Below, in pieces: positions 20,085-34,985 of a DNA stretch of 54,787 bases; position 1 is the first letter of the stretch, and every line of letters starts with the position of its first letter. This DNA comes from a virus: the IMG/VR virus record IMGVR_UViG_3300018719_000035, positions 1-54,787 of that record, one strand, 5' to 3'. The notes beneath the pieces are model-generated. The model had not been told where the DNA came from. It did not search any database and saw only the letters and a list, made by a program, of their open reading frames with translations. Made by a program: the position numbers and the translations under genes.

Positions 20085-20115
20085 TGGTTTCTCCGTGAGC
20101 AAAAAGGGGGATGGT

Positions 20116-20784
20116 TCAGCCGCTCGGCAGAAGCGCCTTTAGGAACGCGGCCGGATCGTTCGCCTGATTGCCCTCGGACTCGCTCCGAATGGCCTTGGCA
20201 TAACCATGCGAGGCGATCGCAGTGGCCATGCTTTTCGGGACGCCTGCCTCACGCAGGATGTCCTCGAATTCCTTGATCGGCATGGGGTCGCCGTCGCGCA
20301 GGCGGCGGGCGAACTCTTCCATACGTTCGGACTTCACGCTCTCAATCCGGGCGCGGCGGTTGGCCGGGAACGTCACCGGAGAGATTTCGTAGAGGTCCAG
20401 TTTCTTCAGAAGGCGAATGTTGCTCTCTTGATCGGCCTCTACCTCACGGTAGCCGATCGACAGACCGCCGATGGCCTTGTTCTTAGCCAATGCGTGAACC
20501 TCACGCGCCCGCTGGATGTCGAGCAGGAAGCGGCCCTTGCCCCACAGTCCTTTCGCATCTTCGGCCAAATCCTCCCACACACCGATGGGCTGGTGCGGGT
20601 CGTGATTCCAGAGCATCAGGACATTCGTGCCCTCGCGCTTGTGCCGCGCCAGGCTGTCAACGAACGCTCCCGGCATGACCTTCTCGCCGTAGCTGTCCAC
20701 GTTCCCGAAGACGGAGCCATAGCCTTCAAAGGTGCCGTCTTCCGACAGATCCTTGACCTGCAGGGCGAAGTCTTTGGTCTTCAT
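20116..20784 (-). CDS. HK97-family prohead protease of the prophage
   Basis: The 222-residue protein has the herpes/HK97-type protease motifs: FEGYGSVFGNVDSYGEKVMP, the catalytic histidine in LMLWNHDPHQPIG and the catalytic serine in IGGLSIGY. It cleaves the capsid delta domain during head maturation. It lies between the portal fragment and the capsid. A second, divergent copy is in the inserted element. Confidence 0.9.
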   Translation of the reverse strand: MKTKDFALQVKDLSEDGTFEGYGSVFGNVDSYGEKVMPGAFVDSLARHKREGTNVLMLWNHDPHQPIGVWEDLAEDAKGLWGKGRFLLDIQRAREVHALAKNKAIGGLSIGYREVEADQESNIRLLKKLDLYEISPVTFPANRRARIESVKSERMEEFARRLRDGDPMPIKEFEDILREAGVPKSMATAIASHGYAKAIRSESEGNQANDPAAFLKALLPSG

Positions 20785-20789
20785 GTGTC

Positions 20790-21188
20790 CTATTCCTCGG
20801 TGGGCGGCGGCAAGGCAGGCTGGCCCGCCTGCGTAATGGGCACGTTCTGCATCTGCATGCGGGGCACATCGCCGCCAGGGACAGGCGGCAGGTTCTCCAA
20901 GGCGCGGACCTCGTTGATGGTCATGGCCCCAATGCCAGTCATTTCCCTGTAAAAGGTCGCACGGCCTTGACTGTCGCCGCGCAGGAGCCCTTCAAGGTTG
21001 AATTCGATGGTGATGCCGGCCGCCCGATCAACCGGCGTCAGGAGCTGCTTCTCAAGCGCCTGCTCGATCCTCTTCAGGCGGCGGCGCAGGGTGAATTTCT
21101 GGAAGCCGAGGGTCTGCTGCTCAAGGCCGGTCCCCCAGCTCGTGGTTTTCTCGGTATGGCCGACCATGAAGGGCGGGACACCGAAGAA
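20790..21188 (-). pseudogene. Portal gene, C-terminal fragment (interrupted by element)
   Basis: The frame reads FFGVPPFMVGHTEKTTSWGT followed by GLEQQTLGFQKFTLRRRLKR. This is the C-terminal third of an HK97-family portal protein, which normally continues from an EEICRFFGVPP region. The N-terminal two thirds are at 32014-32874. The break is exactly at the 11-bp repeat bounding the inserted element. The frame stays open into the element, so no native start remains; the first ATG (21167) is internal to the portal. Confidence 0.85.
21178..21188. repeat. Left attachment core (11-bp direct repeat) of the inserted element
   Basis: ACACCGAAGAA on the plus strand, identical to 32033-32043 with both flanks different. 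On the portal coding strand it reads TTCTTCGGTGT and encodes Phe-Phe-Gly-Val. It lies 57 bp from the end of the element integrase gene, as expected for an attachment site. Confidence 0.85.
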
Positions 21189-21224
21189 ACTAATCGTCTT
21201 GTTTTTCAGTCGCTTAGTGTTGTC

Positions 21225-21232
21225 TTGCGCAA
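21225..21232. repeat. TTGCGCAA motif near the left attachment core
   Basis: An exact palindromic TTGCGCAA, followed two bases later by the half-copy TTGCGCG. The same octamer appears twice, plus one variant, near the right end (31867-31966). It may be an arm-type integrase or AlpA/excisionase binding site. Confidence 0.45.
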
Positions 21233-21244
21233 TTTGCGCGCGAA

Positions 21245-22453
21245 CTATTCCGCAGGAGACGGAAGCGCGATGACTGCGGGCCTCGTCAGACGATCACTCA
21301 AGGCCTGCATTTGAGAGGTGTCTGTGATGCGGTTTTGCAAGGCATGGGCATAGACGCTCATGGTCATATCGACCTTGGAATGACCGAGGGCGTTTGCCAC
21401 CTCGGGGAGGCTCCAGCCGTTCTCGATCATCCAGCTTGCGGCAAAGTGCCGAAGAGCATGGAAATGGAAAGTTGGCTTCTTAAAGTTTTCAGCCAGCCCC
21501 GCCCGGACGAGGAGCGGACCCCAGGAGCCATGCCGGAAGCCGTTTGCATCCATAGGCTTTCCACTCCGGTAGGTGAACATAAGGCCCTGTGGATTGGCCT
21601 TCCCGGTCGGTACCTGGTACTTTTCGATCCACTCAGCCAACAGCTCGGCAACGTGCGCCGGCAGCGCCACGTCACGGACGCCCGCCTTAGACTTCGGAGA
21701 CTTGAGCCCGTCGCGCCGAGAAAGGCTGGTTCTGACCCGCAGGATGCCTCGTGCGAAGTCCACGTTCGATACCCGGAGGCCGAAAATCTCCCCAAGCCGC
21801 AGCCCGCAGAAAACGGAAAGATGTACCGCGCACTGGAGGCGCAGCGCTGCATCTGGCGTGCGCCCCTTATACATGGGGGCATTTACGGCCGTCAGGAGAG
21901 CCCTGACCTGATCAACGGTGAAGGTTTTTACCGGCGATGTTTTCGCCCCCCTCACCTCGGAAAGCAGGGCAAGCACCGGGTTCTTGAAGATCCATTCGCG
22001 CTTAACCGCATGGTCAAAAATCATCTTCAGGGATTGAGCCGCGATGATCGCGGAGCGGGCTGACAGGTTGCGGGCCTGCCTCATCTCCTGGAACCACTCC
22101 TCCAGCCTGGGGAGCGTGACCTGATCAATCCGCATTTCGCCAATGTACGGCAGGATGTGCAGACGAATTGTGGACTCCACCCGATATTCGTGCCCCTTCC
22201 CTATGCGCCCGTCTTTCACCTTCTCTTGCATCGTGCGAAGGAAAGCCCCCGCCACTTCTTTGATGGTGAAGCGTTCAGCAACCTGAATTTTCTTACTGAG
22301 GTCGATTTCTACCTTGCTTCGGAATAGGTCTGCATCCTTCTTCTTTTCAAACGTCTGTTGGCGATGCTTACCGCTGTGATCGACATAGCGGACGATCCAG
22401 GCGCTCTTCTTCTCGCCCTTATAGGTCCACTCTCTCTTGCTAACGCTTGCCAC
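21245..22453 (-). CDS. int: Tyrosine recombinase (integrase) of the inserted element
   Basis: The 402-residue protein has an Arm-type DNA-binding N-terminus (KREWTYKGEKKSAWIVRYVD), a SAM-like core-binding region (about 60-160) and the catalytic set: Arg219 (CGLRLGE), Lys256 region, HALR at 332-335, His358 (LGHSK) and Tyr368 (MSVYAH). All are present, so it should be active. It starts with GTG, with GGAG six bases upstream. It ends 57 bp from the left core. It should integrate and excise the element at the portal-gene site. Confidence 0.9.
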   Translation of the reverse strand: MASVSKREWTYKGEKKSAWIVRYVDHSGKHRQQTFEKKKDADLFRSKVEIDLSKKIQVAERFTIKEVAGAFLRTMQEKVKDGRIGKGHEYRVESTIRLHILPYIGEMRIDQVTLPRLEEWFQEMRQARNLSARSAIIAAQSLKMIFDHAVKREWIFKNPVLALLSEVRGAKTSPVKTFTVDQVRALLTAVNAPMYKGRTPDAALRLQCAVHLSVFCGLRLGEIFGLRVSNVDFARGILRVRTSLSRRDGLKSPKSKAGVRDVALPAHVAELLAEWIEKYQVPTGKANPQGLMFTYRSGKPMDANGFRHGSWGPLLVRAGLAENFKKPTFHFHALRHFAASWMIENGWSLPEVANALGHSKVDMTMSVYAHALQNRITDTSQMQALSDRLTRPAVIALPSPAE

Positions 22454-22476
22454 GTTGCTCTCCTTTCATGAAAAGA

Positions 22477-22503
22477 GGCCCGGCCACGGAATGCAGCCGG
22501 GCC
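22477..22503 (-). terminator. Intrinsic terminator between the acidic gene and the integrase
   Basis: GGCCCGGC and GCCGGGCC form an eight-pair stem with an 11-base loop; on the minus strand the stem is followed by TCTTTTC. It would stop transcription of the upstream acidic gene before the integrase. Confidence 0.6.
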
Positions 22504-22510
22504 GTTTGGG

Positions 22511-22957
22511 TCAGTACGTTTCAGGGATGATGTGCGCGGTGCCGTCTATCGTCCCGTAGAGCGGGAAGCGGGTCACAGTCGCATCAATGCCGTACTGCTC
22601 ATCAAGCCCGCCACGGTCGCCTATGCCGTTGTCATCGGTGTTGCCCTCGAAATCCTCATCGGGCTCCCGACCGTCATGCTCCTCCTCAAGGTCCTGATCG
22701 GAGCCATGGGCATAGGTGCTCGTCCAACCTAGGGAAGGTTCAAGGTCTGCGTCGGGTTCAGCCTCGTCAACGTGTCCCGGGGCAACCGAACCAAAGGAAG
22801 GTTCAAAGTCCGGATCGCCGTCGATGGCGTCGAGCAGATCAATCATCCGCTCTAACTCTCGCTCAATCTCGGCTCTCAAGGCGCGGAGACGCGTGCGCTC
22901 CGGATCGATAGCCGGAGGCGCTATTGGCCCACTGCGGGCGTAGAATTGTGAAGTCAT
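22511..22957 (-). CDS. Acidic hypothetical protein upstream of the integrase
   Basis: The 148-residue protein has an N-terminal coiled helix (RLRALRAEIERELERMIDLL) and a strongly acidic middle with repeated DxEPS(F/L)G and Asp/Glu-rich stretches. It resembles the acidic DPDxEPSLG proteins common in rhizobial genomes and prophages; their function is unknown. DNA-mimic or metal-binding roles are possible. A terminator follows it. Confidence 0.65.
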   Translation of the reverse strand: MTSQFYARSGPIAPPAIDPERTRLRALRAEIERELERMIDLLDAIDGDPDFEPSFGSVAPGHVDEAEPDADLEPSLGWTSTYAHGSDQDLEEEHDGREPDEDFEGNTDDNGIGDRGGLDEQYGIDATVTRFPLYGTIDGTAHIIPETY

Positions 22958-22980
22958 GGTTTCTCGCGGTAGGAACCGGC

Positions 22981-23326
22981 TTGCTACGGCCGGGGATTGG
23001 TACGCTTGCTAAGGCGTCCTCTCCTTGCCAGCGGTCAGCACTGGCACCGGGAGGTTAGCAACACGTCCGCGAGAACGTGCCCAAAGGCCTTCCCCTCGAA
23101 AGGGTCTTGTATAACCAGTGGCCTCCCGGCATAGTGGTGCCGTTCGGTGCCCACTGGTCGTGGGCCCGTCAGTTTCGGTACGATCTGGCCGGCAAGCCAG
23201 CTCCTACCTATCGCGGATGCAGCGCTAGACCCGGCAAGGTCCCGCTGCGAGAGTTGCTACGCTCCAATCAGGAATATGACACGCGAACCCACCGCCTCGC
23301 AAGGCGGAAGGGGTCTTCGCGCGTGT
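22981..23326 (+). ncRNA. Hairpin-dense non-coding region, candidate structured RNA
   Basis: This stretch of about 450 bases between the acidic gene and the DUF4145 gene has no convincing frame but several strong inverted repeats. They are TGCCAG/CTGGCA (23026-23046), ACCAGTGG/CCACTGGT (23114-23158) enclosing CGGCA/TGCCG, CTGGC/GCCAG (23185-23200) and CCGCCT/AGGCGG (23292-23307), the last enclosed by CGCGAA/TTCGCG. I do not recognise tmRNA, RNase P, 6S or a known riboswitch. Strand and boundaries are uncertain. Confidence 0.4.
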
Positions 23327-23404
23327 CCTCGCTGGCCAGGACTCGACTCCCAAGCAAGTTAGGCTAGGCTCCCTGCTCACCATTTCATGATTGCAGGGCT
23401 ATAG

Positions 23405-24133
23405 ATGTCCAACGACAATCGGAGGCTATTTCTCCTCCTCAAAGATAGCGATAATGTAGTTTGCAATGGGTGCGGCACTCAACAGATAGCCAACCTAAAG
23501 ACGATGGATGTTGACCCTAAGCACTATATAAAAACGTTCATTTGTCTCCGCTGCCGCCAGGCTAATATTGAAATATTCTGGTACGCAGACGAAATCAAAC
23601 GATCAGGGCAATTCACATCGAAATCTTTCAGGTTCAAGACCATCTATCGTTATCCTGCCGCCAAGAGTAACTTTGCCATCCCTGATAACTGCCCTGATGC
23701 GATCAAAGAAGATTACCAAGAGGCCGCTCGGTTGTTGAATGTAAGTGCTAGGGCCTCGGCTGCATTCTCACGACGGTGCTTGGAAGGTATTCTCACGGCC
23801 CAGGGTTACACTCAAAACCAACTTGTTCAAAAAATCGAGGCTCTTCTGAAAGAAGAGGATCCTCGCAAAGTCTTGCCCTACTACATCTCGAAGAACGTCG
23901 ATGCGGTTCGCGGTTTCGGAAACTTCTCAGCACATCCGATTGTAAATAAAGCGACAGCGGAGATTACTGACGTTCAGCCTGGAGAGGCAGAATGGTGCCT
24001 GCAAATTATCCAAGAACTTTTGGATCATTACTATACACGTCCAGCCGAGGAGCGAGCAAAGATCGACCAGATAAATGAGAAGCTCATCGCAGCGGGAAAG
24101 CCGCCGATCAAGGTGCCCAAAGAGACCGAATAG
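23405..24133 (+). CDS. DUF4145 domain protein, accessory cargo of the element
   Basis: The 242-residue protein has an N-terminal zinc ribbon (CNGCG ... CLRCR, residues about 19-57) and a C-terminal DUF4145 domain with CPDAIKEDYQEAARLLNVSA, a RRCLEGIL helix and GFGNFSAHP. DUF4145 proteins often accompany restriction or other defence genes; the molecular activity is not established. It is visibly more AT-rich than its neighbours and opposite to the structural genes, so it is probably recently acquired cargo. AGGG lies upstream of the ATG. Confidence 0.8.
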   Translation: MSNDNRRLFLLLKDSDNVVCNGCGTQQIANLKTMDVDPKHYIKTFICLRCRQANIEIFWYADEIKRSGQFTSKSFRFKTIYRYPAAKSNFAIPDNCPDAIKEDYQEAARLLNVSARASAAFSRRCLEGILTAQGYTQNQLVQKIEALLKEEDPRKVLPYYISKNVDAVRGFGNFSAHPIVNKATAEITDVQPGEAEWCLQIIQELLDHYYTRPAEERAKIDQINEKLIAAGKPPIKVPKETE

Positions 24134-24239
24134 CGCCTACTGGCTCACCAGAGGATACACCACGGGAAAAGGTCGGGCAGACTTGCGAGATGATCCTGGC
24201 TTCTTACATCGAAGATGCGACTCAATCGAAGGAGGCCCT

Positions 24240-24455
24240 ATGTCGGACGTTCGATCGCCCCTTGAAGCCCTAAATGCTTTCCGCAAGATCCTTGTTGAGG
24301 AGCGTCGACAGATCATTTCTAGTGCGCTGGACCTACGAGAGGCCAATGGAGAGGGAGGTCTCCGCGGAGCCGATCTTCAGCGCATTCAGGAACAAATCGA
24401 AGCCGTTGACCGAGCTATTGCGGATGAAACAGCGCTTCAGCATGCCGACCTCTAG
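24240..24455 (+). CDS. Small helical accessory protein
   Basis: The 71-residue helical protein begins MSDVRSPLEALNAFRKILVE, with two amphipathic helices and an acidic end. A perfect GGAGG four bases upstream fixes the start at 24240; the longer frame is not used. It lies downstream of the DUF4145 gene on the same strand, about 100 bases away, and may be its partner. It converges on the tape-measure gene, overlapping it by four bases tail to tail. Confidence 0.65.
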   Translation: MSDVRSPLEALNAFRKILVEERRQIISSALDLREANGEGGLRGADLQRIQEQIEAVDRAIADETALQHADL

Positions 24456-27172
24456 CGCCCTCTCATTTTGTTGCCGCCCCACATCTTCAGCGCACCAGCT
24501 GTCTTGCTGCCGTTCATCAGGGCATTCGCTACCATGTCATCAATTTGAGCATGGAAGGTTGGGCCCTGCGGCCCATCGGGACCTCTCGTCACCTTCACGC
24601 CTGGTGCCTGGGTAATCGAGACATGGACATTGCTGCCCCCGGTCTTGTTGTGCGGGATGATTTGCCCGGGCGTTGTCGGCACGAAGGTTTCCCTGCCGAA
24701 CTCGCCCACTGTGTAGGCGGTCCCCGCCTTAACCTGTCCGCCTTGAGCGCGACCTGTAGGGTTGAAGGAAATGCCTGCGGCCTTACCGGAAAAAGCGCTG
24801 GTAATCAGGCCCACGAGACCGCCTAGCGCCCCGTTCTGACCGCTTGTGCCAAAAAGCCCTGCAAGGGGCCCTTGTCCGAGAATTGCAGCCTGGAGTGCTG
24901 CCCTTGCGAGCGATTTTGCAACGTTCTGGAAGACTTCATCAAGGCTGCGCCCTTCAAGGGCAAGATCTGTGATCGCCTCAAGAGCGACATCGCCAAAGTA
25001 TTCAGCCGTCCTATTGGCTTCTTCTTGGGCCTGCTCGTATTTCTTTATTGCCTCTTCCGCGTTGTATATCGCGGTCGTGCTGTCAATAATGGCCTGCTTC
25101 TGCTCATCGGTTGCAGCAGCGCCAGCGCGCGCGAGATTGATTGCGATCTGCCGTTCAAGGTTGGACTTACCAAGAGCCGCAGCCTCTGCCTCTACTTCGG
25201 CCCGCTCTGCGGCAAGGCTCTCGGTGAATTGCTTCACGCGGTCCGCATCGCGCTCATCGTCAGACTTGCCCCGCTTAGCCTCCTCAGCGTTCACGATGCG
25301 GGTGGCGGCTAACTCGAGAGCCTTCGGGTCTACCGTGCCGCCGGCCTTCGTGATTTCGTCAAAGAGTTTCTGCCGGGTATCGCGGATCTTCTTGGCCGTC
25401 TCACCCATCTCAGCCTCAGCGACCGATCGCTGAAGGGCTGCCTGTCCTTGCAATGCTCGGATGACCGGATCGTTAGCAACGTTCTGCGTGGCCTCCGAAT
25501 AGGAATTGCCCGTCGTCGGGTTAGGGATCGCTCGTTCGATTGCCTTGCTGGTTGCATCTGCCGTCTCTGACCCGACGGCCTTGAGTTCGGTCCGCAGCTT
25601 TCGAACAAGTGTGATGGCTCCCGCAAAATTGTCGAGGATGGGCTTCAGACGGTCGGCAATCTCCTGGAAATTTGGATTGGAATTGGCGAGCCGGAAGATT
25701 TCCTCTTTCGTCTTGAGCGCCGACTCCGCTGAGCCGTCAAACCCCCGAGCTAGGTTCTGCAGGCTCTTCACATCTTCAGGATTGCGGATTGCTGAGCTGA
25801 AGGCGCTATATCCGGCAAGTGTCTGCTTGATCTGTGCCTCGAACCGTGCAGCGTCGTTCGTCGCCTCGTTGATACCCTTGTTGAGTTCGTTCGTCTTCTG
25901 CTCGGCCTGGGCCTTGGCAGCCCGGATCACCGCTTCCGTGTGCTCATCGATGGCCTTTCCCGACTCCTGAGCGGAGGTTCGCACCTCCTCAAGAGCAGCG
26001 GCGTACTGACGGCTGCGCTCCGCAGCTTTCGCGCTCTCGGACGAGAAGTAGACCGCAGCTGCACTCACCGCGAGGATTGCCGCTCCAACAGGTCCACCAA
26101 CCACCGCAAGGGCCCTGGAAGCTGCGGCAGCCGCAGACATACGGGCCTGGGACGCAAGGAGAGTCGCATTCAGGGCGTTCATGGCCGTGCTCGCACGGGC
26201 GGCCGCAGCCACGGTCGAGCCAAGGGCAACGGCAGCCGGTGTCAATCCCTGCCCGATCAGACGGGCCGCAATAACTGTCCCAAGAGCAACAGCACCATCG
26301 GCCGCAACCCCGAAGTTGTTCGCCAGGAGCTGCGCTGCCGAACTGATAGCACCTGTGGCCATAGCAACTGTGGAACTCTGTCCCACGTATCGGGTAGCTG
26401 CCGTCTCAATGGCCGTGAAGGCGTCCTGCCCTGTAGCCTTGGTCTTGGCGAATGCGCCGTTGACCTCGGAAGCAGCAGAGACGATGCCTTTGAAGACGCG
26501 ATCCGAGGTCAGTTTCCCTTCGGCACCAAGCGTCTTCAGTTCACCGACTGCGACACCGAATTCCTTGGCTATAGCCTGGGCAACCACGGGCGCGTTCTCA
26601 AGCAGGGACCGGAGTTCATCGCCCTGGAGCTTGCCGGAGCTAAGTCCCTGTCCGAGCTGCACAAGGGTTGACTCGGTTTCGCCCGCGCTCGCCCCTGCCA
26701 GTTTTAGGGCCTTAGCGACAGTCTCGGTTGCGACCGCAACTTCGGCCTGCGATGCATTTAGATCCTTGGACGAGCGCGTGAGCCGGGCGTAAAGGTCCGC
26801 CGTAGAGCTGAAGGAAGTCCGGGCCCTTTCAGCCGACAAGGAAATCTGTTCAAGCGTGGAGGCCTGCTGGTCCAAGGGCACGCCTGCCGCGACGATCTTG
26901 TTGCCAGCGTTCGTCCACTCGTCCGCCAGCTTCTGAACGACGGCCACCGCCGCCGCCGTGCTCACGCCAGCCAGGGCCCTCCCCATATGCCCTTGAATGC
27001 TGCTGCTGAGCCGAGCCATGTTTGCTTCGACGCGCTGCTGAGCCTTGCTGGTACTCTGCTCGACAGCCTTCATCTGCCGCTCAGTGATCTGGCGGGCTTT
27101 CTTCAGCTCGTTCTCGTAATTCTTGATCCTCGCTTCAAGCGAGACGACGAGTTGTTCGAGTTCAGTTGCCAT
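24452..27172 (-). CDS. Second tail tape measure protein, encoded by the inserted element
   Basis: At 906 residues this is longer than the prophage's own tape measure (670). It shares the first ~50 residues in style (MATELEQLVVSLEARIKNYE), the STADLYARLTRSSKDLNAS helix, and the C-terminal block (GQGPLAGLFG, YTVGEFGRETFVPTTPGQI). The middle differs: it has alanine-rich hydrophobic spans at about 295-400 and a long coiled coil at 600-720. AAGGAG precedes the ATG. An element without tail-tube or tip genes that carries its own tape measure would be expected to alter tail length or the ejection apparatus of helper tails. Confidence 0.9.
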   Translation of the reverse strand: MATELEQLVVSLEARIKNYENELKKARQITERQMKAVEQSTSKAQQRVEANMARLSSSIQGHMGRALAGVSTAAAVAVVQKLADEWTNAGNKIVAAGVPLDQQASTLEQISLSAERARTSFSSTADLYARLTRSSKDLNASQAEVAVATETVAKALKLAGASAGETESTLVQLGQGLSSGKLQGDELRSLLENAPVVAQAIAKEFGVAVGELKTLGAEGKLTSDRVFKGIVSAASEVNGAFAKTKATGQDAFTAIETAATRYVGQSSTVAMATGAISSAAQLLANNFGVAADGAVALGTVIAARLIGQGLTPAAVALGSTVAAAARASTAMNALNATLLASQARMSAAAAASRALAVVGGPVGAAILAVSAAAVYFSSESAKAAERSRQYAAALEEVRTSAQESGKAIDEHTEAVIRAAKAQAEQKTNELNKGINEATNDAARFEAQIKQTLAGYSAFSSAIRNPEDVKSLQNLARGFDGSAESALKTKEEIFRLANSNPNFQEIADRLKPILDNFAGAITLVRKLRTELKAVGSETADATSKAIERAIPNPTTGNSYSEATQNVANDPVIRALQGQAALQRSVAEAEMGETAKKIRDTRQKLFDEITKAGGTVDPKALELAATRIVNAEEAKRGKSDDERDADRVKQFTESLAAERAEVEAEAAALGKSNLERQIAINLARAGAAATDEQKQAIIDSTTAIYNAEEAIKKYEQAQEEANRTAEYFGDVALEAITDLALEGRSLDEVFQNVAKSLARAALQAAILGQGPLAGLFGTSGQNGALGGLVGLITSAFSGKAAGISFNPTGRAQGGQVKAGTAYTVGEFGRETFVPTTPGQIIPHNKTGGSNVHVSITQAPGVKVTRGPDGPQGPTFHAQIDDMVANALMNGSKTAGALKMWGGNKMRGR

Positions 27173-27183
27173 CCCGTCGCTCC

Positions 27184-27417
27184 TTATGCCCGTCCAGCCA
27201 ATTCAGGGTTCTCGATCCGGTCGGCTGCATCCCGCAGGAGCTTTGCGGCAACTGCACGCCCGTCCAGCGCCATGATGGCCCCGCCTCCCTTCGCAATCAT
27301 TGCAATGGCAAGCGCTCGACTAGGGATGATGCTATCGCTCACCAGTTCCACCAGCCTATCAAGGGCGCATTGAGCCATCACGTCGTGGGGGTCGGCCTCG
27401 ATCACTTCAGTTGTCAT
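27184..27417 (-). CDS. Small hypothetical protein before the element tape measure
   Basis: The 77-residue helical protein begins MTTEVIEADPHDVMAQCALD and has a GGGAIMALDGRAVAAKLLRDA segment. Its ATG lies 11 bases inside the end of the HGG-motif gene, and it is followed 11 bases later by the tape measure. The longer frame upstream is a shadow of the HGG gene. Position suggests a tape-measure chaperone or small head-tail protein, but no family is recognised. Confidence 0.6.
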   Translation of the reverse strand: MTTEVIEADPHDVMAQCALDRLVELVSDSIIPSRALAIAMIAKGGGAIMALDGRAVAAKLLRDAADRIENPELAGRA

Positions 27418-27655
27418 GTCTCTCAGCTCTTTTCTTGGCCCAAAAATCCTTCCAGGCCTGGTGTCTCTGTTCGGGCGTGATCGCCCTGCTGTATCGTCCG
27501 CCCTTCCACGCACCGTTGCGCTCGCCTGTAGGAGCCCCGCTGCCAGGAGCGCCGCCATGGAGCCGGCATCTGCGCTTGCCAGGGGTCGGAGAGCGCCTGC
27601 ACGGCTCTCCTGAGCGGGTTTTCGCGCCACATTGGCGAGTTTCGGCTTCATCCAT
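27407..27655 (-). CDS. HGG-motif phage protein
   Basis: The 82-residue basic protein has the motif CGAKTRSGEPC ... RCRLHGGAPGSGAPTGERNG, a cysteine/histidine signature shared by many small phage and prophage proteins usually encoded close to packaging or morphogenesis genes. It may bind zinc and DNA. It is the first gene after the cos-like sequence, in the same place that the small terminase gene has in the prophage, but it has no similarity to that protein. Confidence 0.7.
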   Translation of the reverse strand: MDEAETRQCGAKTRSGEPCRRSPTPGKRRCRLHGGAPGSGAPTGERNGAWKGGRYSRAITPEQRHQAWKDFWAKKRAERHDN

Positions 27656-27666
27656 GGGGTTGATCC

Positions 27667-27756
27667 GAACTTTTTTCTGAAATTTGCGGCATCGCGTGTT
27701 TGACTGAGGGCGCCGGTCCAGGGCCGGAGGCCTCTAGACTTTTCGCCCTCCCCCCG
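27667..27756. other. Cos-like packaging sequence, copy in the element
   Basis: This non-coding stretch shares identical blocks in the same order with 34897-34985: GAACTTTTT, CTGAAA, TTGCGGCAT, TGAGGGCGCCGGTCC, TCTAGACTTT and a run of six to seven Cs. I estimate about four fifths identity over 90 bases. In the prophage the sequence lies directly upstream of the small terminase gene, where cos is found in lambda- and HK97-type phages. The element copy lies directly upstream of the HGG gene. A shared promoter is the alternative. Confidence 0.6.
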
Positions 27757-27798
27757 TCACAGTTCCGCTTAATCGTGATCAGGCTGGGGGCAGCACCA

Positions 27799-27999
27799 TT
27801 GAAAGACCTAATCGGATCGCTCTGCACGCTCGTGTTCATTTGCATTTTCTTGCCGTTCAAGATCGCTTTTGACTTAGTGGTCATGCCGGGCGCGCTGGCT
27901 GCTGGTAATTTCAGGCGCGGCGATACCTTTGGAGGATGTCTGATGCTCCTTTGGTACTGGCCATTTGTGGTCATTCCCCTTGCTCTCATGAGTAGGTGA
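27799..27999 (+). CDS. Small membrane protein beside the element cos-like site
   Basis: From a TTG start preceded by GGGGGC the frame gives 66 residues with two membrane spans (LCTLVFICIFLPFKIAF; CLMLLWYWPFVVIPLAL). Hydrophobic pattern and lack of a credible frame on the other strand support coding. It runs against the capsid operon. The stretch 27656-28076 otherwise holds only the cos-like site and an untranslated segment behind the capsid gene. Confidence 0.45.
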   Translation: MKDLIGSLCTLVFICIFLPFKIAFDLVVMPGALAAGNFRRGDTFGGCLMLLWYWPFVVIPLALMSR

Positions 28000-28076
28000 G
28001 CACTGGTCCTGTGGATCGCCTCCACAGAACCAGCGCTGAGCAGCGCGACGGGGGGAGCATGCCGCGCTGCCATTGG

Positions 28077-29282
28077 TTAGGCTACTAGGCCGAAGTCGCC
28101 GTAGGTCAGCGCCTTGGTTTCCTTCACGGCAAGGCCGATCCGCTCCTCTGCCAGCACGGCCACGAGGTTACGGGTGAAGAAGTCCGCGTGCTCGGTCGAG
28201 ACTTCGACCCGAGGTGCCCAACGGTCATAGAGGGTTGCCGCCGCCTGGAAGTTACCGACGAGGAACTTATCGACCGTCATCGCAGGCGTGGCGATTACCG
28301 GCAGGCCAAAGAGTACCGGGGCAACGTTGGCGCCGGGAGCCCCAAGAATGTAGTTGCCGTCTGCATCCTTCAGCAGGCGCATGCGCATCCAATCAGACGG
28401 GTGCATGATGATGCCATCGGCCGGCAAATCAGCGAGCGCGTTCTGCAGGATCGCAAGGCCGATGATGTCGATGAGGTTCGGGCTCGTGACATTGATAGGA
28501 GCCACGTATGGCGTGGCTTGTGGAACCATGCCGAGGAGGTGCTGCCCTGTGCCGTCACCATAGAGCAGCTCGGACTCCTCTTTCAGCTCCAGGCCATAGC
28601 GCAGCTCGGTATCGATCAGGCCCATGAGCTGTGGGGCATCATCGAGGATCTGGCGAGAGGCCGGTACCCAATGCGCGATGGTGCGAATGGGCGTGGTCAC
28701 AAGCTCGAAGGCGTAGCCGCTCTCCGGCTTCTGCGCTCCCTCAGCCACTACATCGGCGTTATTCGTGCGGCCGGTCTGCTTTGGATATTCGACGCTGCCA
28801 CTCGACACTCCAATGGTCGGCAAGAGGTTTCGGATGACCATACGCCGCTTTGGCATCGTCACGAGGGTGTCGCGTTGGGCAGGAGCAAGCGCACCGCCCG
28901 AGGTGTCCGCCGACGTGATCGTAGCTTTCACTTCCATACGGAAGCGGCCTGGGCGGGAGTGATCGTTAGCGAAGGACTTCAGCTCGGGGGCATCAACAAA
29001 CTGCTCGCCCCAGGTCTTAGGCTTGGATGGCTGGCCGCCGTAGTGTGCCCCGCGCGCCATCTTCTGCTCGATCTCCAGCATACGGGCGTCGAGCTCGGCA
29101 TTCTTGATGCCTGCCTCTTCCAGAGCTGCCCGCACGTCCTTGTTCAGGCCCTTGAACTCGCGCACCAGCTCAGACACGCCGCCGCCCTCATTGGGCTTGT
29201 CGAGGAGGATCCGGGGGCCAACAGCGCACGAGGCGAGGAAGGCAATGCCGCCCGCAGCGGGCATAGTGGGAAGGGTCTTCAT
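28077..29282 (-). CDS. Major capsid protein of the inserted element (HK97 fold)
   Basis: The 401-residue protein has a helical delta-like N-terminus, the shared block RTIAHWVPASRQILDD, LLYGDGTGQHLLG and HPSDWMRMRLLKD, and ends LTYGDFGLVA. It is a clear homologue of the prophage capsid but divergent throughout, so it is not a recent duplication. AAAGGA lies upstream of the ATG at 29282. The N-terminal hydrophobic patch (GGIAFLASCAVG) is odd for a scaffold domain. It would build the element's own head; the size is not predictable from sequence alone. Confidence 0.95.
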   Translation of the reverse strand: MKTLPTMPAAGGIAFLASCAVGPRILLDKPNEGGGVSELVREFKGLNKDVRAALEEAGIKNAELDARMLEIEQKMARGAHYGGQPSKPKTWGEQFVDAPELKSFANDHSRPGRFRMEVKATITSADTSGGALAPAQRDTLVTMPKRRMVIRNLLPTIGVSSGSVEYPKQTGRTNNADVVAEGAQKPESGYAFELVTTPIRTIAHWVPASRQILDDAPQLMGLIDTELRYGLELKEESELLYGDGTGQHLLGMVPQATPYVAPINVTSPNLIDIIGLAILQNALADLPADGIIMHPSDWMRMRLLKDADGNYILGAPGANVAPVLFGLPVIATPAMTVDKFLVGNFQAAATLYDRWAPRVEVSTEHADFFTRNLVAVLAEERIGLAVKETKALTYGDFGLVA

Positions 29283-29284
29283 GG

Positions 29285-29992
29285 TCACTTTCCTTTCAGA
29301 GACTTGATGTCGAGCCGGGCGGCCTTCACGAGGTGCGCAAGCTCATCGATTGCAGGATCTGGCTGGGGTTCGTCCTCATCGCCGCTCAATGCCGGCCATC
29401 CGCCAGACATGAGCTTTTTGACCGCCCGTCCGGGCAGGTGCTCTCGGAGGATTTCTTCAAGCTCGGCTCGCGAGCTGAATGATTTGACGGCTGTGATCCC
29501 GGCGCGGCGTTGGGCCGGGATGGTCACGAGCGACACCTCGCGAAGATCGATAGCCTTCAGGGTGCGGGTGCCGTCATTGTTGCGGACATAGCCGTCAGGG
29601 TAGATCGAATAGCCGATGGAAAGGCCGCGAATATCACCGGCCTTTACATGGGCATGTGCCCGTCTCCCGGCCTCGGTTTCAAGGTTGAGGGACCCGCGGA
29701 CAAACAAGCCGCGCTCGTCTTCCTTGGCCTCTGTCCATCTACCGATAGGCTCGCGGGGATCGTGCCCCCAGAGCATCACAGGCAACGTTCCGTCCCGCCG
29801 ATGCTCGGCAAGGCTCTTGGCATAGGCGCCCGGCGCGATGATGTCGCCATAGCTGTCAGGGGCGCCGCCGAAGTAGGACGCATAGCCTTCGATCGTGCCG
29901 GTATTGGCCTTGTCGCTCGCCAGCTTGATCTCAAGCGGGGTCGATGCGTGGAGGTAAGTGGACAGGTCTTCTTTCGTGAAAAGTTTGGTCAT
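29285..29992 (-). CDS. Prohead protease of the inserted element
   Basis: The 235-residue protein begins MTKLFTKEDLSTYLHASTPL and has GTIEGYASYFGGAPDSYGDI, the catalytic histidine in VMLWGHDPREPIG and the catalytic serine in IRGLSIGY, followed by LREVSLVTIPAQRRA. This is the HK97-type prohead protease. GAAGG six bases upstream fixes the ATG at 29992. It lies two bases before the capsid gene, as a matched protease-substrate pair. Confidence 0.9.
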   Translation of the reverse strand: MTKLFTKEDLSTYLHASTPLEIKLASDKANTGTIEGYASYFGGAPDSYGDIIAPGAYAKSLAEHRRDGTLPVMLWGHDPREPIGRWTEAKEDERGLFVRGSLNLETEAGRRAHAHVKAGDIRGLSIGYSIYPDGYVRNNDGTRTLKAIDLREVSLVTIPAQRRAGITAVKSFSSRAELEEILREHLPGRAVKKLMSGGWPALSGDEDEPQPDPAIDELAHLVKAARLDIKSLKGK

Positions 29993-30152
29993 CGAGCACC
30001 TTCGGCAGGCATCAAAGCAAAGGGCCAGTAAGACCCGTTTTGGCTCTGAGCAGCGCGCCAGGCGCATGCCGTAGAGGTGTCATTGGAGAGGGGCAGCGCG
30101 AAGCATACCGGCTCGATGACAACTCTATAACTAGCATGCGCCCTGCGCGGTT

Positions 30153-30416
30153 TCAATGCTTGGGTTGGGCTTCAGCGGCGTCTGCCTGTTGAGCAAGGCC
30201 CATTGCCAACAGGTAAAGCTCACGACCGGTGTTTCGTGCGCCCCGTGCTTCGGTCAGGACATTCACACCTACAGACACGAAGGCCGTTCCCAGGTCTTCC
30301 GGCTTGTAGCCCCTCGCCTCCAGATCGATGCGAGCCTGAGACAGGATAAAGAGCACTTCATCGAGCGGGCTTTTCACCATCTCGGCAGGCACTTCGAGAG
30401 TGTTCTCGTTCGTCAT
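30153..30416 (-). CDS. Small helical protein upstream of the element protease
   Basis: The 87-residue protein begins MTNENTLEVPAEMVKSPLDE and is mainly helical (LFILSQARIDLEARGY; ELYLLAMGLAQQADAAEA). AAAGGA six bases upstream supports the ATG at 30416; the longer frame is arginine-rich shadow sequence. No family is recognised. It lies between the replication-type and head genes. Confidence 0.6.
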   Translation of the reverse strand: MTNENTLEVPAEMVKSPLDEVLFILSQARIDLEARGYKPEDLGTAFVSVGVNVLTEARGARNTGRELYLLAMGLAQQADAAEAQPKH

Positions 30417-30508
30417 TGTCTTTCCTTTCATGAATTGGGGCGAAGTGGCGTTCGTCGCAGAGGCGTCCCCATCCCCCCACGCGTGCAGGCGCATGCGTGC
30501 GAGGGGGG

Positions 30509-30790
30509 CTATCCGCTCTCGCACCTCATTTGCTTGTGCCTCTGCTTGTGGTGGCGTCGGCAAAGCCACCGCACCTTGAGGGGCTGGCTGTAATCCTCGT
30601 GATGGGCGTCCACGTTCTTCATGGTCCCGCACACCGCGCACGGTTGCCGATTTAGCGCGCCCGTCCTCATGGCCTTTTGGACTGCGAGGTGAGCGCTCCG
30701 TTTTTCGGGGTTGCGTGAGCGCCAATTGTGCTGAGCGGTGAAGCGGACGTGCAAAAGCCCGTCGCGGCGTGAGCCTCGTTCCTGGGTCAT
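30509..30790 (-). CDS. HNH-type zinc-binding nuclease of the element
   Basis: The 93-residue basic protein has CAVCGTMKNVDAHHEDYSQP followed by WLCRRHHKQRHK: two CxxC-type ligands, the HH catalytic pair and the second-half HH. This is the compact HNH-like form common in small phage genomes. I prefer the ATG at 30790 to the TTG 21 bases upstream. HNH proteins assist terminase cleavage in HK97-type phages, so it could take part in packaging; a homing role is the alternative. Confidence 0.75.
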   Translation of the reverse strand: MTQERGSRRDGLLHVRFTAQHNWRSRNPEKRSAHLAVQKAMRTGALNRQPCAVCGTMKNVDAHHEDYSQPLKVRWLCRRHHKQRHKQMRCESG

Positions 30791-30818
30791 CTCGATACCT
30801 GCTGAAAACAAAAAGCCG

Positions 30819-30919
30819 GGGGCGTTTTCGCCCCTTATCCGGGGGCGCTATCGCCCCTTCTCAAAGCCATGGGCCAGGGGCGATTTTGCCCCTACAGTCC
30901 TAGGGGCGCTATTGCCCCT
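30819..30919. repeat. Four iteron-like GGGGCG palindromes, candidate origin of the element
   Basis: Four copies of a palindrome: GGGGCGTTTTCGCCCC (30819-30834), GGGGCGCTATCGCCCC (30842-30857), AGGGGCGATTTTGCCCCT (30876-30893) and AGGGGCGCTATTGCCCCT (30902-30919). Centres are 23, 35 and 26 bp apart. The last two are inside the 3' end of the Rep-like gene, one spans its stop codon and one lies just after it. Origins embedded in initiator genes are known in phages and satellites. Confidence 0.6.
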
Positions 30920-31366
30920 ACTTTCTAGATCTCGGGAGGGGGCAGCTTTCAGAGCTTCCAACACGGCAAGCGCATGCTCGTCCGTGCTGATCCTCTGCCA
31001 TTCATCTGTCGGGGCCTCGCTCCGGCCTCGCCCATGAACATAGGTGAGCCGATAGAGAGAGGGTGTCCTGAACTCGGCCACTGATCGACGGCCCTGCCTT
31101 GTGACCTCAAGAAACCCGAGGGCTACACATTGACGGATAGCCAGCGCAATCGACTTGCGCCGAATGCCTGCCTTTTCGAAGTCGGCATAGGTGCAGGGCA
31201 GCCGGCCATTCTCAGCGCTTCCATGCCTCATGTGTTCGAGTTCCAAGCGGTCGAGGATGCGCCGGGCATTGTCCGGCAGATGCCTCCATGCCGGAGCCTC
31301 CCTCATGTCGCGGCGATGGGCGATGAACTGTTGCCCGATGCTGTTGCGTCGTCTCTTTGCGCTCAT
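30848..31366 (-). CDS. Replication-initiator-like winged-helix protein of the element
   Basis: The 172-residue basic protein has a helical N-terminus (QQFIAHRRDMREAPAWRHLP), a DNARRILDRLELEHMRHGSA segment and a winged-helix pattern (FEKAGIRRKSIALAIRQCVA, then LGFLEVTRQGRRS). This resembles the DNA-binding part of small replication initiators. GGAGG precedes the ATG. The C-terminal 20 residues are encoded by the palindromic repeats and look like a by-product of them. It follows the PC4-like gene by 24 bases. Confidence 0.65.
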   Translation of the reverse strand: MSAKRRRNSIGQQFIAHRRDMREAPAWRHLPDNARRILDRLELEHMRHGSAENGRLPCTYADFEKAGIRRKSIALAIRQCVALGFLEVTRQGRRSVAEFRTPSLYRLTYVHGRGRSEAPTDEWQRISTDEHALAVLEALKAAPSRDLESRGNSAPRTVGAKSPLAHGFEKGR

Positions 31367-31389
31367 TCCGCGCCTCCGGTCCGCTGGGC

Positions 31390-31641
31390 TTACCGGGGAG
31401 CAGGAGAGACAAGGCCGAGGCTTTCAGCTTGGTCCCTCGCCTCACCAATGGCGCGGGCAATCTCAGGCAGGAGGTCAACACGAAAGGCGAGCCCGGACTT
31501 AGAGGGCCGCATCGCCCCATCGGAAGCCTTAAACCAGACCCTAACATGCGCGACCGAATGGCCTTGATACTCCCCCAGGCTGACCCGGATCTCTTCGCGG
31601 GAGTTTTTGCGAATAGTGGCGATAGGGGCCTCATCGGTCAT
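31390..31641 (-). CDS. PC4/p15-like single-strand-binding transcription coactivator
   Basis: The 83-residue product has the PC4 core: IRKNSREEIRVSLGEYQGHS, a VRVWFKASDG strand-turn, RPSKSGLAFRVDLLPE and a C-terminal helix. Bacterial PC4-like proteins bind single-stranded DNA and act in transcription, replication or recombination. Its ATG overlaps the AlpA stop by four bases. In a satellite, such a protein could activate the element's or the helper's late genes; this is inference. Confidence 0.75.
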   Translation of the reverse strand: MTDEAPIATIRKNSREEIRVSLGEYQGHSVAHVRVWFKASDGAMRPSKSGLAFRVDLLPEIARAIGEARDQAESLGLVSPAPR

Positions 31642-31853
31642 GCTGCTTCTCCTTTCGCCGCCTTCGCCTCACGCTCGGCAATTTCAGCGATCCAGGCGCG
31701 CACCTTCGATCTGTGAGCACAGACCGTCCGCCCGATTTTAAATGTCGGCAGTCCGTGCTTCTCCTTCAGGTGATAGACCTGCCGCGGCTTCCACTTGAAG
31801 GCTTCAGCGATGGCCGGAACGCCATACAAAAGGTCATCATTTTCACTCGTCAT
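31638..31853 (-). CDS. AlpA-like excisionase/activator
   Basis: The 71-residue protein has a winged-helix MerR/AlpA-type fold: LLYGVPAIAEAFKWKPRQVY, then HLKEKHGLPTFKIGRTVCAH and RSKVRAWI. AlpA-family proteins act as excisionases and activators in phage satellites of the P4 and PICI types. It is the first gene at the right end, 180 bp from the core repeat, with AAAGGA upstream, and heads the element operon. Confidence 0.85.
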   Translation of the reverse strand: MTSENDDLLYGVPAIAEAFKWKPRQVYHLKEKHGLPTFKIGRTVCAHRSKVRAWIAEIAEREAKAAKGEAA

Positions 31854-31866
31854 TTGTTGTCCTTTC

Positions 31867-31966
31867 TTGCGTAAGTTTTGCGCAACGGAGACGCCGGAAA
31901 GCTGTGTTATCCGGCGCTAAGTCTTTGTAATCATTGATAGCGATAGGAAGCGCGCACATTGCGCAA
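31867..31966. repeat. Cluster of TTGCG(C/T)AA motifs at the right end of the element
   Basis: TTGCGTAA (31867-31874), TTGCGCAA (31878-31885) and TTGCGCAA (31959-31966) flank the promoter region of the AlpA-like gene; a hairpin CGCCGGA/TCCGGCG lies between them (about 31891-31916). The same octamer is near the left core. Probable binding sites for the integrase arm domain or AlpA. Confidence 0.45.
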
Positions 31967-31988
31967 AAAAGGGCGCATTTAGCGCCCT
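31965..31988 (-). terminator. Intrinsic terminator at the right border of the element
   Basis: On the minus strand AGGGCGC, a TAAAT loop, GCGCCCT and five further Ts form a seven-pair stem with a U-tract. It faces transcription coming from the prophage terminase-portal genes and lies 45 bp inside the element. Confidence 0.75.
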
Positions 31989-32013
31989 AAGTTATTGGTG
32001 ACTATGTAGAATT

Positions 32014-32874
32014 TTAGTCTCTCTGCGGAGTTACACCGAAGAATCGGCAGATTTCCTCAACCGAGAAGCCCCGGCTCTGCAGCATCTGGGCATCCTCGGG
32101 ATTGATCGTGAGTTGCGCCCACTTCGTGCCGCCTTCCAGCACCAGAGGGCGGCCGGCATTCATGGCGCCGAAGAACTTCTCAGCGAGCTTGTCCTCGATG
32201 ATCTTGCGCTGATCCTCTTTCAGGAACGCCTCGAACGTCAGGACGCCCGAAGGCCGCAGCCCATTGCGGAACGTGCTGCCGGCCGCCTTGTCGATAGCCA
32301 GAGAGAGCCCGAAGACCTGGCGCCCGAATGCCAGCGTGGACATGCCGCCGAGAGGATTCCCGCCGAAGCCGCGGATGTGCAGAACGTCCTTGTCCGTCAG
32401 CACATAGGACTTGCCGTCCTGGGTCCAGCGATACTCAAGAGAGCCATTCTCAAGCCGCCGCACTGACGGGAGATCCGGTTGGATGGGGTCAAGGGCAACG
32501 ATCCGCCCTCGCTCCCATATCTTGCGGGAATAGGCATTGCCCCAGAGTTCAATCGAAGCCGCCTTGAACTCCCAATAATCGACCGCCGTCTGGTCAAAAT
32601 TCGGGCTGTCGTGCAGGAGCCGGTAAAGCGGATGATCCTTCGCAACCTCACGGGCTCCGTCCGCCTTGGTCCGGTAGACCATGAGTGGCAGGGAAGCGAT
32701 CGTGCCGGCGAGCAGGTTCACACAGGCCCAGGCGGCCGACAGACCGAGCACGCTCGGGGCGTTGACGCCCTCCCCGGCATGACTCTCGCCGCCGTGGTCG
32801 CGCCATCCTGTCGGGTCCGTCAGAGAGAGCGGCCGGCGGACGAAGAAGTTCGCCATCTTCTGAAGCAGTTTCAC
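32014..32874 (-). pseudogene. Portal gene, N-terminal fragment (interrupted by element)
   Basis: The frame gives 286 residues of an HK97-family portal (SLTDPTGWRDHGG, AAWACVNLLAGTIASLPLMV, LYRLLHDSPN, FSVEEICRFFGV). At the core repeat it leaves the portal sequence and stops after five foreign codons (TPQRD). Joined at the repeat to the C-terminal fragment at 20790-21188 it gives an uninterrupted product of about 409 residues, a normal length. It starts with GTG, overlapping the large terminase stop by four bases. As it stands the product lacks the C-terminal stem and crown. Confidence 0.9.
32033..32043. repeat. Right attachment core (11-bp direct repeat) of the inserted element
   Basis: Identical to 21178-21188 (ACACCGAAGAA on the plus strand). 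Here it lies in the portal codons for FFGV, five codons before a stop that belongs to the element. Confidence 0.85.
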
Positions 32875-34574
32875 GCCGCACCCACCAAGCTAGCCAGATA
32901 GTCGTCCAAAGTGCCGCCGCTTTCTTCTTTCCGGTCGCGGGATTTGAGGCCGAGCGCCATCGTGAGCGCCACCGCGCCGTCAATGCGGAACCGGGCCTTG
33001 TTCTTGTCGATCTTGCGCCCGCCTGCCGGATCTGTGACCGCGACCGCGTTCGCCATGTTCCAGTTCAGAACCGGGTTGTTGCCGTGGATCAGCTTCCGGT
33101 CGATCACCGCCAGTTCCATCGCGTCGATAGCCGGCGTCATGTCTTTGAACCCCTGCCCCCAAGGAATAATCCGCAGCCCGTCGCCCTTCTCGCCGTCCTT
33201 GTGAGCGGCGAAGTCGATGCGGTCGAACTCCTTGATCAGGTCGTCAATCCGCCAGCGGTCATAGGCCATGCCAAGGACGCGGTAGCGGCCGCAGAGATCC
33301 GCGATGTGGCGGGCGATCACTTCCTTGTCGATCGAGCGGCCCGGGGTCGCCAGAAGGTGCCCCTGCTTGTGCCACTCGACAAAGCGGTGGTTGCCCCGGC
33401 CAAAGTCCCGGTTTGAATGCTCCTCGAGGAAGTCTTTCGGTTTCCAAAGGAAGGGCTGCACCCGGCTCGGGTCACTTGCGCTGACCATCACGAGGGCGGT
33501 CAGGTCGTTGATCGAGGACAGGTCTAAGCCGAGATAGACCTCCTCGCCCTCTTCAATCGTGGCATCTCCCTTGCAGGCCATCCATTCGGCCCGGGAGATC
33601 AGCGAAGCGACCGGTGCTACGCGCTGGTTGAGGTAGAGGTTCCGAAACTTCGGCTCCTCTGCCGGCATGCGTTTGGCCTTGTCGGCAATCGCCTTCAGAT
33701 CCTCGAAAGACCGGAAGTCACCAAGAGCCGGGTTCGCCAGCTCCCAACACTTCGGATCGAAAATGTCCTCCTGCTCCTCCGGAACAGCGTAGAGATGGCA
33801 GACGATAGTCGGGTCTTTCGCGCCCAGGCCGTCGTCAATGAGCTTCGACAGGATGTGCTCAGGGTCGTTGCTCTGCGTCGAGATCGTTACAAAGAGCGGC
33901 TCCGCACGAGCACCCATCGAAGTATCAAGAACGTCGTAAAGTTCGCGATCTTTCGCTTGAGCCAGCTCGTCAAAGATGACGAAACTCGGGTTGAGGCCAT
34001 GTTTTGTGCCTGCCTCTGCTGAAATGGCTTTGTAGAATGACCCATTGCTATAGCAGGCAATAGTTTTCGTTGAGTCAACGCAGCGGAGCATGGCTGAAAG
34101 CTCGGGATCCGCCTTAACGATCTGCGAAGCGACCTTGTAGACCTGCCCTGCCTGCTCCCGGTCGTTCGCCGCGGAATAGATTTCCCCGTTCTGGATCGCC
34201 TCGGGCCCGACCAGATGGACGAGCACGAGAGCCGCAATCAGAGCCGTCTTACCGTTCTTTCGGGCAATCGAGAGGATGGCCCGCCGAACTTGGCGCCGAT
34301 ACTGCCCCTTGGTGAGAGCGTGCGGCTCGTAGATGTCCCGGATGAACTGCTTCTGCCATTCCCGGAGGACAAACGGGCCGCCTGCCCCCTCGCCGCTCGG
34401 AACCGTCAATGCCTCGATGAAGGCAATGACTCGGGCTGCCCGATCAGGCCGTCGAACTTGCTCCTTGGCTTGCTTTCGGGAAGTTGCAGAGCGGCCCTTG
34501 CCTTTGGATCCAGCCCGAGGCGGTCGCCCCACGATCTCATTTCCTCGGACATGGCCTTCAGTATGCGAAACCAT
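32871..34574 (-). CDS. terL: Terminase large subunit
   Basis: The 567-residue packaging motor has a Walker A-type loop SIARKNGKTALI (about 102-113), a Walker B-type stretch SFVIFDELAQ (197-206), STQSNDPEHI coupling motif and a C-terminal nuclease half with EEVYLGLDLSSINDLTAL. It matches the HK97/P27-linked terminases that cut at cos. It overlaps the small subunit gene by 169 bases and the portal by four. The inserted element has no such gene, so this would be the motor for both genomes. Confidence 0.95.
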   Translation of the reverse strand: MVSHTEGHVRGNEIVGRPPRAGSKGKGRSATSRKQAKEQVRRPDRAARVIAFIEALTVPSGEGAGGPFVLREWQKQFIRDIYEPHALTKGQYRRQVRRAILSIARKNGKTALIAALVLVHLVGPEAIQNGEIYSAANDREQAGQVYKVASQIVKADPELSAMLRCVDSTKTIACYSNGSFYKAISAEAGTKHGLNPSFVIFDELAQAKDRELYDVLDTSMGARAEPLFVTISTQSNDPEHILSKLIDDGLGAKDPTIVCHLYAVPEEQEDIFDPKCWELANPALGDFRSFEDLKAIADKAKRMPAEEPKFRNLYLNQRVAPVASLISRAEWMACKGDATIEEGEEVYLGLDLSSINDLTALVMVSASDPSRVQPFLWKPKDFLEEHSNRDFGRGNHRFVEWHKQGHLLATPGRSIDKEVIARHIADLCGRYRVLGMAYDRWRIDDLIKEFDRIDFAAHKDGEKGDGLRIIPWGQGFKDMTPAIDAMELAVIDRKLIHGNNPVLNWNMANAVAVTDPAGGRKIDKNKARFRIDGAVALTMALGLKSRDRKEESGGTLDDYLASLVGAA

Positions 34575-34894
34575 GGGTTTGGTTGTTTCTGCCCCTTGCT
34601 CCCGTCTACGACAGGCTCGAAATCAGGGGCGTTCATCTCGTGAGTGGCCCTCTTGTGCCAGGCCCAGGCCGTGGCGAAAGCAGAGAGGGCAAACGTGTCT
34701 ACGGTTGCGTAGGTCTTCGGCGGCATCGAGCGCCGGATCATCTCAATGCAGGCCTGCGCGTCATCATGCAGATGCTCGGGGGCGAAGACCTCCCCGGTGG
34801 CCTCGATCCCGAGATCGACAATCGGCCTCTTCGAAGGGTTGCCCTCGATTTTCCGGATGCTCGCCAGCTTCGGCTTTGGCCCTCGCTTACCCAT
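34406..34894 (-). CDS. terS: P27-family terminase small subunit
   Basis: The 162-residue protein begins MGKRGPKPKLASIRKIEGNP, the start typical of P27-type small terminases, with AQACIEMIRRSMPPKTYATV and a C-terminal helical region. It recognises the packaging site and recruits the large subunit. The start lies three bases after the cos-like sequence. No strong ribosome site is visible before it. Confidence 0.9.
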   Translation of the reverse strand: MGKRGPKPKLASIRKIEGNPSKRPIVDLGIEATGEVFAPEHLHDDAQACIEMIRRSMPPKTYATVDTFALSAFATAWAWHKRATHEMNAPDFEPVVDGSKGQKQPNPWFRILKAMSEEMRSWGDRLGLDPKARAALQLPESKPRSKFDGLIGQPESLPSSRH

Positions 34895-34896
34895 TG

Positions 34897-34985
34897 GAAC
34901 TTTTTCTGAAAACTTGCGGCATTTCGCGTTTGATTGAGGGCGCCGGTCCTAGTCGGAAGAGTTCTAGACTTTCGACCACCCCCCC
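34897..34985. other. Cos-like packaging sequence, prophage copy
   Basis: Shares ordered identical blocks with 27667-27756, including TGAGGGCGCCGGTCC (34935-34949) and TCTAGACTTT (34963-34972) and a terminal C-run. It lies between the small terminase and a divergent small gene, the usual place of cos. The exact nick positions cannot be read from sequence. Confidence 0.6.

Follow-up and report, generated by a model that had tools for sequence, protein, structure and literature searches.

A putative capsid- and tape-measure-carrying satellite in the portal gene of its helper prophage

Helper-embedded phage-inducible chromosomal islands (HE-PICIs), such as 11capE in E. coli NRG857c, have been described in Enterobacteriaceae (Tommasini et al. 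2023; PMC10111431). Capsid carriage is common among them, and excision after helper induction was shown for a comparable E. coli element. The survey started from one integrase, and phage surroundings were found only among Enterobacterales (PMC10111431). The present analysis concerned IMG/VR record IMGVR_UViG_3300018719_000035 (54,787 bp, the window), in which a 10,855-bp element splits the portal gene of a prophage. With a probability of roughly 0.85, the element was read as a phage satellite that has this prophage as its helper and is embedded in the helper's portal gene. Like an HE-PICI, it lies within a helper late gene in the same orientation, is bounded by a short core identity, and carries an AlpA-like gene and a capsid gene of its own. 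It also has sequence in common with what is probably the helper's packaging site, judged by its position upstream of the terminase small subunit (TerS) gene. L-numbers denote related contigs and loci.

Insertion site and copied helper sequence

The element lies on the minus strand between its left and right attachment sites (attL, 32043; attR, 21188). An 11-bp core, TTCTTCGGTGT, was common to both break points of the portal gene, in copies 10,855 bp apart. When the flanks were joined at this core, a single open portal frame of 409 amino acids (aa) was obtained, reading EEICRFFGVPPFMVG. The site was uninterrupted in all 80 related portals from IMG/VR, and 46 of the 80 differed from the 11-bp core by one base or less. 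The insertion was therefore considered precise and derived, given the shared core, the restored 409-aa portal and the intact relatives. Placement of the element inside a prophage portal gene, proposed in the initial annotation, was borne out by these results and by the split PF04860 match. A strict terminator was present 45 to 54 bp inside attL in four of five elements. An arm-site motif was also sought. A doubled CGCRACAA-type repeat was visible approximately 42 to 53 bp before attR in most relatives. With a profile built without the window, the window's left and right sites ranked 5th and 72nd of approximately 109,000 positions, so the motif was regarded as suggestive at most.

Part of the element matched the block directly upstream of the helper TerS gene (Table 1), and none of 50 shuffled queries gave a match. 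A copy of the own helper's TerS-upstream block was found in six of the eight embedded elements tested (the window, L014, Microvirga L016, L063, L064 and L004; E 1e-13 to 2e-29). L014 held two copies (95% over 43 bp and 90% over 58 bp). The remaining matches comprised 57 bp at 96.5% in L016, 75 bp at 84% in L063, 75 bp at 96% in L064 and 104 bp at 82% in L004. A TerS-like gene, by appearance, was present inside the element in L008 and L004. The blocks were unrelated among the three helper types compared (window/L014, Microvirga and L063). A packaging site is by far the best guess for the function of the TerS-upstream block. Its copying supports the use of the helper terminase, as had been suggested initially. 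Matched blocks of this kind pair a satellite with its helper from sequence, free of culture, and could be a route to the helpers of free-standing satellites.

Related elements and descent of their genes

Related elements were found in other prophages, which the initial annotation had advised searching, and were sited there in head genes. Those in L014 and L007/L016 encoded 172-aa and acidic proteins near-identical to those of the window and a different integrase (33%). They interrupted a protease-capsid gene within its capsid portion, at a repeat equal in length to that of the window, and the same site was occupied in L064. L016 is part of the assembled genome of Microvirga lupini AT3.9, a named strain carrying a relative. 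Own capsid genes were present in the L014 and L007/L016 elements, and a tape measure gene also in L014. The gene for the terminase large subunit (TerL) was split at the Walker A motif in L063, by an element with capsid and tape measure. It was split at an FR-LY motif in L071/L070, by an element with protease, capsid and, at the tape-measure position, a 1178-aa protein that was not recognised by Pfam. In L011 the element lay near the TerL 3' end and was followed by an intact portal gene and a second protease-capsid pair. Integrases closer to that of the window were followed by an N-terminally truncated late gene, which encoded a lambda-type portal (L002), lambda-type TerL (L005), P22 coat (L180) or TerL (L178), or was a small late gene preceding TerS (L004 and L008).

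A free-standing homologue, also among the proposed checks, was found in L066 between apparent chromosomal genes. It comprised protease (75%), capsid (70%), HGG, p155-like, tape measure, DUF4145-like and acidic protein genes with a different integrase, and held neither TerL nor portal. L009 and L010 were small contigs with a primase, a TerS-like gene, protease and capsid.

In the capsid tree, all seven satellite capsids grouped with that of L067 (support 93/98), apart from the helper capsids encoded on the contigs that carry them. Clustering this strong was reached in 0 of 500 shuffles of the labels. The window and L066 capsid genes differed mainly at third codon positions (0.21/0.16/0.55), so the gene has been kept under purifying selection. 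The window integrase was placed in a supported nine-member group (99/98), mostly sited in late genes, and the integrases of the capsid-site elements formed another group. A single monophyletic clade of late-gene integrases was not supported; the L063 integrase was sister to 23 integrases whose sites were not established, and the placement of L011 and L071 was not settled by the tree. The integrases were far more alike over their first 50 residues than over the remainder.

Several further observations were made on these contigs. In L063 (11291-13045) what is left of the helper TerL continues in frame into an endolysin-like muramidase and a peptidoglycan-binding domain; the stretch from TerL to the lysis genes thus seems to have been lost from this helper. 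L067 has integrase-like, AlpA-like, portal, TerL and protease genes, the satellite-group capsid and a 1505-aa tape-measure-like gene, and resembles a capsid-forming PICI (cf-PICI). In L178 and L179 (Alphaproteobacteria genome G093), window-group integrases stand beside copper-handling and other chromosomal-type genes; these are possibly larger embedded islands with metal cargo. Small proteins encoded upstream of the integrase in L009 (7044-7385) and L180 (11296-11661) begin with closely matching twin-arginine-like sequences (SRRGFLRGL..LPLIGGGVTLIG), in elements that otherwise differ.

Gene content, proposed cycle and alternatives

In the order of helper late transcription, the element comprised the terminator, AlpA-like, PC4, 172-aa, HNH-motif, 87-aa, protease and capsid genes, the copied block, the HGG, 77-aa and tape measure genes, the DUF4145 gene on the opposite strand, the acidic and integrase genes, and attR (Table 1). 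The helper is a complete temperate prophage that encodes an integrase, a repressor, a NusG-type antiterminator, an endolysin, a terminase and head and tail proteins of its own.

Table 1. Positions of element and helper features in the window.
Feature	Coordinates	Strand	Match or remark
Helper tape measure, about 670 aa	13096..~15108	-	
Helper major capsid protein	18876..20102	-	
Helper prohead protease	20116..20784	-	
Helper portal, C-terminal fragment	20790..21188	-	PF04860 columns 237-321, matched by 20790-21167
attR core TTCTTCGGTGT	21178..21188	-	
Tyrosine integrase, 3' end of element	21245..22453	-	PF00589; placed in tree
Acidic protein upstream of integrase	22511..22957	-	Common to much of family; by eye in L002, L004, L008, L180, L181
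DUF4145/PD-T7-4-like protein	23405..24133	+	PF13643; PDLC04109 E 5e-15
Satellite tape measure, 906 aa	24452..27172	-	PF20155 E 4e-52; TIGR02675
77-aa protein	27184..27417	-	Conserved in L014 and L066
HGG-motif small protein	27423..27632	-	Similar protein in L066
Copied helper block, probable packaging site	27667..27755	-	80% identity to helper block across 90 bp, E ~1e-14
Satellite major capsid protein, HK97 type	28077..29288	-	PF05065; 49% identity to helper capsid
Satellite prohead protease	29285..30067	-	PF04586; 45% identity to helper protease
87-aa protein	30153..30416	-	Similar-looking small proteins before protease in L009, L010, L011, L071 (by eye)
Small protein, HNH-type motif	30509..30811	-	C..C/H..H by eye
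172-aa protein	30848..31366	-	90-94% identity to the L014 and Microvirga lupini proteins
PC4-domain protein (p83)	31390..31641	-	PF02229 E 4e-8
AlpA-like excisionase/regulator	31638..31853	-	phrog_66, phrog_18541; TIGR01764 weak, below cut-off
Terminator hairpin, then T run	31970..31988	-	45 bp inside attL; same position in L014, L007, L071
Helper portal, N-terminal fragment	32014..32874	-	PF04860 columns 1-236; short tail reads into element
attL core TTCTTCGGTGT	32033..32043	-	Codes FFGV of conserved portal motif
Helper TerL	32871..34574	-	PF20441/PF03354
Helper TerS	34406..34894	-	PF05119
Helper block directly upstream of TerS	34897..34984	-	Source of satellite copy
Helper NusG-type antiterminator	38441..39097	-	phrog_6386, PF02357
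Helper CI/LexA-type repressor	43711..44364	+	
Helper integrase	53480..54787	-	

The gene list of the initial annotation was largely upheld (integrase, AlpA-like, PC4, protease, capsid, HGG, tape measure and DUF4145). As it had stated, genes for terminase, portal, connector, tail tube, tip and lysis were not found among the element's open reading frames. The HNH motif was seen by eye only, and the protein matched no NCBIfam profile. The Rep-like assignment was not confirmed, as the 172-aa protein concerned matched no family in profile searches; it also had no match in the search of the phage collection. A winged-helix-like order was seen in a low-confidence model of it (predicted local distance difference test score, pLDDT, 59.6). 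It was rejected as a sole hallmark of these elements because it was present too in other islands and next to a full head module. The DUF4145 protein fits the PD-T7-4 phage-defence model, with similar genes in L066 and L069, and is probably defence cargo. The 1115-aa gene at 8196-11543 was considered as a homologue of the satellite tape measure; no homology was found, and it encodes a tip-type protein. Over much of their length the window and L014 helpers are approximately 90 to 95% identical. They hold different embedded satellites and differ in their head modules (portal-protease-capsid against protease-capsid-portal).

The following cycle is proposed. In the integrated state the portal gene is broken, and the attL terminator would keep ordinary transcription from reaching the element and the head and tail genes that follow it. 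Once the helper is induced, AlpA and the integrase would excise the element at the 11-bp core, as 11capE does in E. coli, and the portal would be restored. The helper NusG-type antiterminator could carry late transcription past the attL terminator, in which case the element may be expressed only in the helper late phase. The excised circle would be packaged by the helper terminase via the copied TerS-upstream sequence. Heads would be formed from satellite capsid and protease on the helper portal, and helper tails would be built on the satellite tape measure. On entry into another cell, the satellite would integrate into a helper's portal gene, either in a prophage or in a helper genome.

Several points weigh against this reading. 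Every member is known from sequence only, and mobilisation by helper particles is what we infer from it; likewise, we infer the packaging role of the block from its position and copying. No block copy was detectable in L071 and L008, of the eight embedded elements tested. No replication protein was identified within the element. The satellite capsid may be dispensable, as is the capsid carried by E. coli PICIs (PMC10111431). The satellite and helper tape measures comprise 906 and 670 aa in the window but 675 and 670 aa in L014. As the window's is longer and that of L014 about equal to its helper's, a simple alteration of tail length, for example to shorter tails, is not consistent between the two. 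A role in DNA entry is an alternative. By way of speculation, the satellite tape measure may let particles inject into cells that already contain the helper prophage, and with it the satellite's integration site, evading exclusion aimed at the helper tape measure.

Three other explanations were weighed. The element could be a gene switch or capsid-swapping cassette of the prophage, staying with its phage and packaged within the composite; its excision would then serve only to control the portal gene or to provide another capsid. It does interrupt head genes in the orientation of the late genes, and the capsid-site elements bring a capsid able to replace the broken one. Against this, the portal-site and TerL-site elements bring no portal or TerL to replace the broken one. 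In closely related helpers, different elements occupy different sites, and L066 stands away from a prophage. A passenger would also need no packaging block of its own, and this explanation was judged improbable. Slightly less probable again is a decayed remnant of a second prophage, or the integrase and a late-gene fragment of a second phage, that landed in the portal gene. The protease, capsid and tape measure do come from ordinary phage families, with kinship to their resident counterparts. Against a remnant stand the exact att cores, the recurrence of a compact gene set lacking TerL and portal in several contigs (one of them free-standing), the copied helper packaging block in six of eight elements, and the capsids, which group as satellite capsids and evolve under purifying selection. 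An assembly artefact fusing two phages, for which the window as a virus contig offers no reads for checking, was given a negligible chance in view of the shared core, the portal frame restored on joining and the recurrence of this arrangement in further contigs, including the assembled Microvirga lupini genome.

Comparison with described satellites

As in phage satellites generally, the satellite proposed here combines an integrase with incomplete particle genes and recurs as a unit. It resembles Gram-negative PICIs and P4-like satellites in its size of approximately 10 kb, its integrase and AlpA-like regulator, and its lack of complete particle genes. It differs from them in that none of the P4 capsid-size genes was recognised, no primase was found, and the att site lies in a helper gene rather than a tRNA or host gene. 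The likeness to cf-PICIs consists of a capsid lineage separate from helper capsids, and a cf-PICI-like gene set is present in L067, whose capsid belongs to that group. However, cf-PICIs have their own packaging genes, whereas the window element is without its own TerS, TerL or portal/head-completion module, is helper-embedded and has a tape measure.

The closest configuration is that of the HE-PICIs. A satellite of different composition, possibly undescribed in alphaproteobacteria, had been proposed initially. The reading as a satellite with capsid, protease and tape measure was supported; the novelty was reduced, since embedding in helper late genes was already known, with capsid carriage common (PMC10111431). 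No paper on alphaproteobacterial embedded satellites was found in the open-access literature, subscription papers and preprints lying outside the search. Capsid and tape measure without a tail tube make an unusual parts list.

The differences from HE-PICIs are several. The window integrase falls outside the 11capE clade (22% over 137 aa, E 0.002) and is distant in the tree, where 11capE is on a long branch. AlpA is at the 5' end and the integrase at the 3' end of the window element, whereas both are at the 5' end of 11capE. HE-PICIs have a primase in their replication zone, and no primase match was obtained with any open reading frame of the element searched. The doubled TGTATTGC motif near attP, an HE-PICI feature, had no match in the element with up to three mismatches allowed. 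A tape measure gene and a terminator just inside attL are further differences, as are the alphaproteobacterial relatives and the HK97/D3-type helper.

Embedding in helper head genes would have evolved at least twice, using different integrases; such recurrence suggests that the position is strongly favoured by selection. The wider proposal is a second, independently evolved helper-embedded lineage in Alphaproteobacteria, with a common integrase N-terminal domain, repeatedly retargeting conserved head and packaging genes and supplying its own capsid and tape measure. It is put forward tentatively, at a little under even odds. Judged from its sequence, the window element is a separate version of the helper-embedded satellite configuration, distinguished by an unrelated integrase lineage, no primase found, a reversed gene order, a tape measure and an attL terminator.

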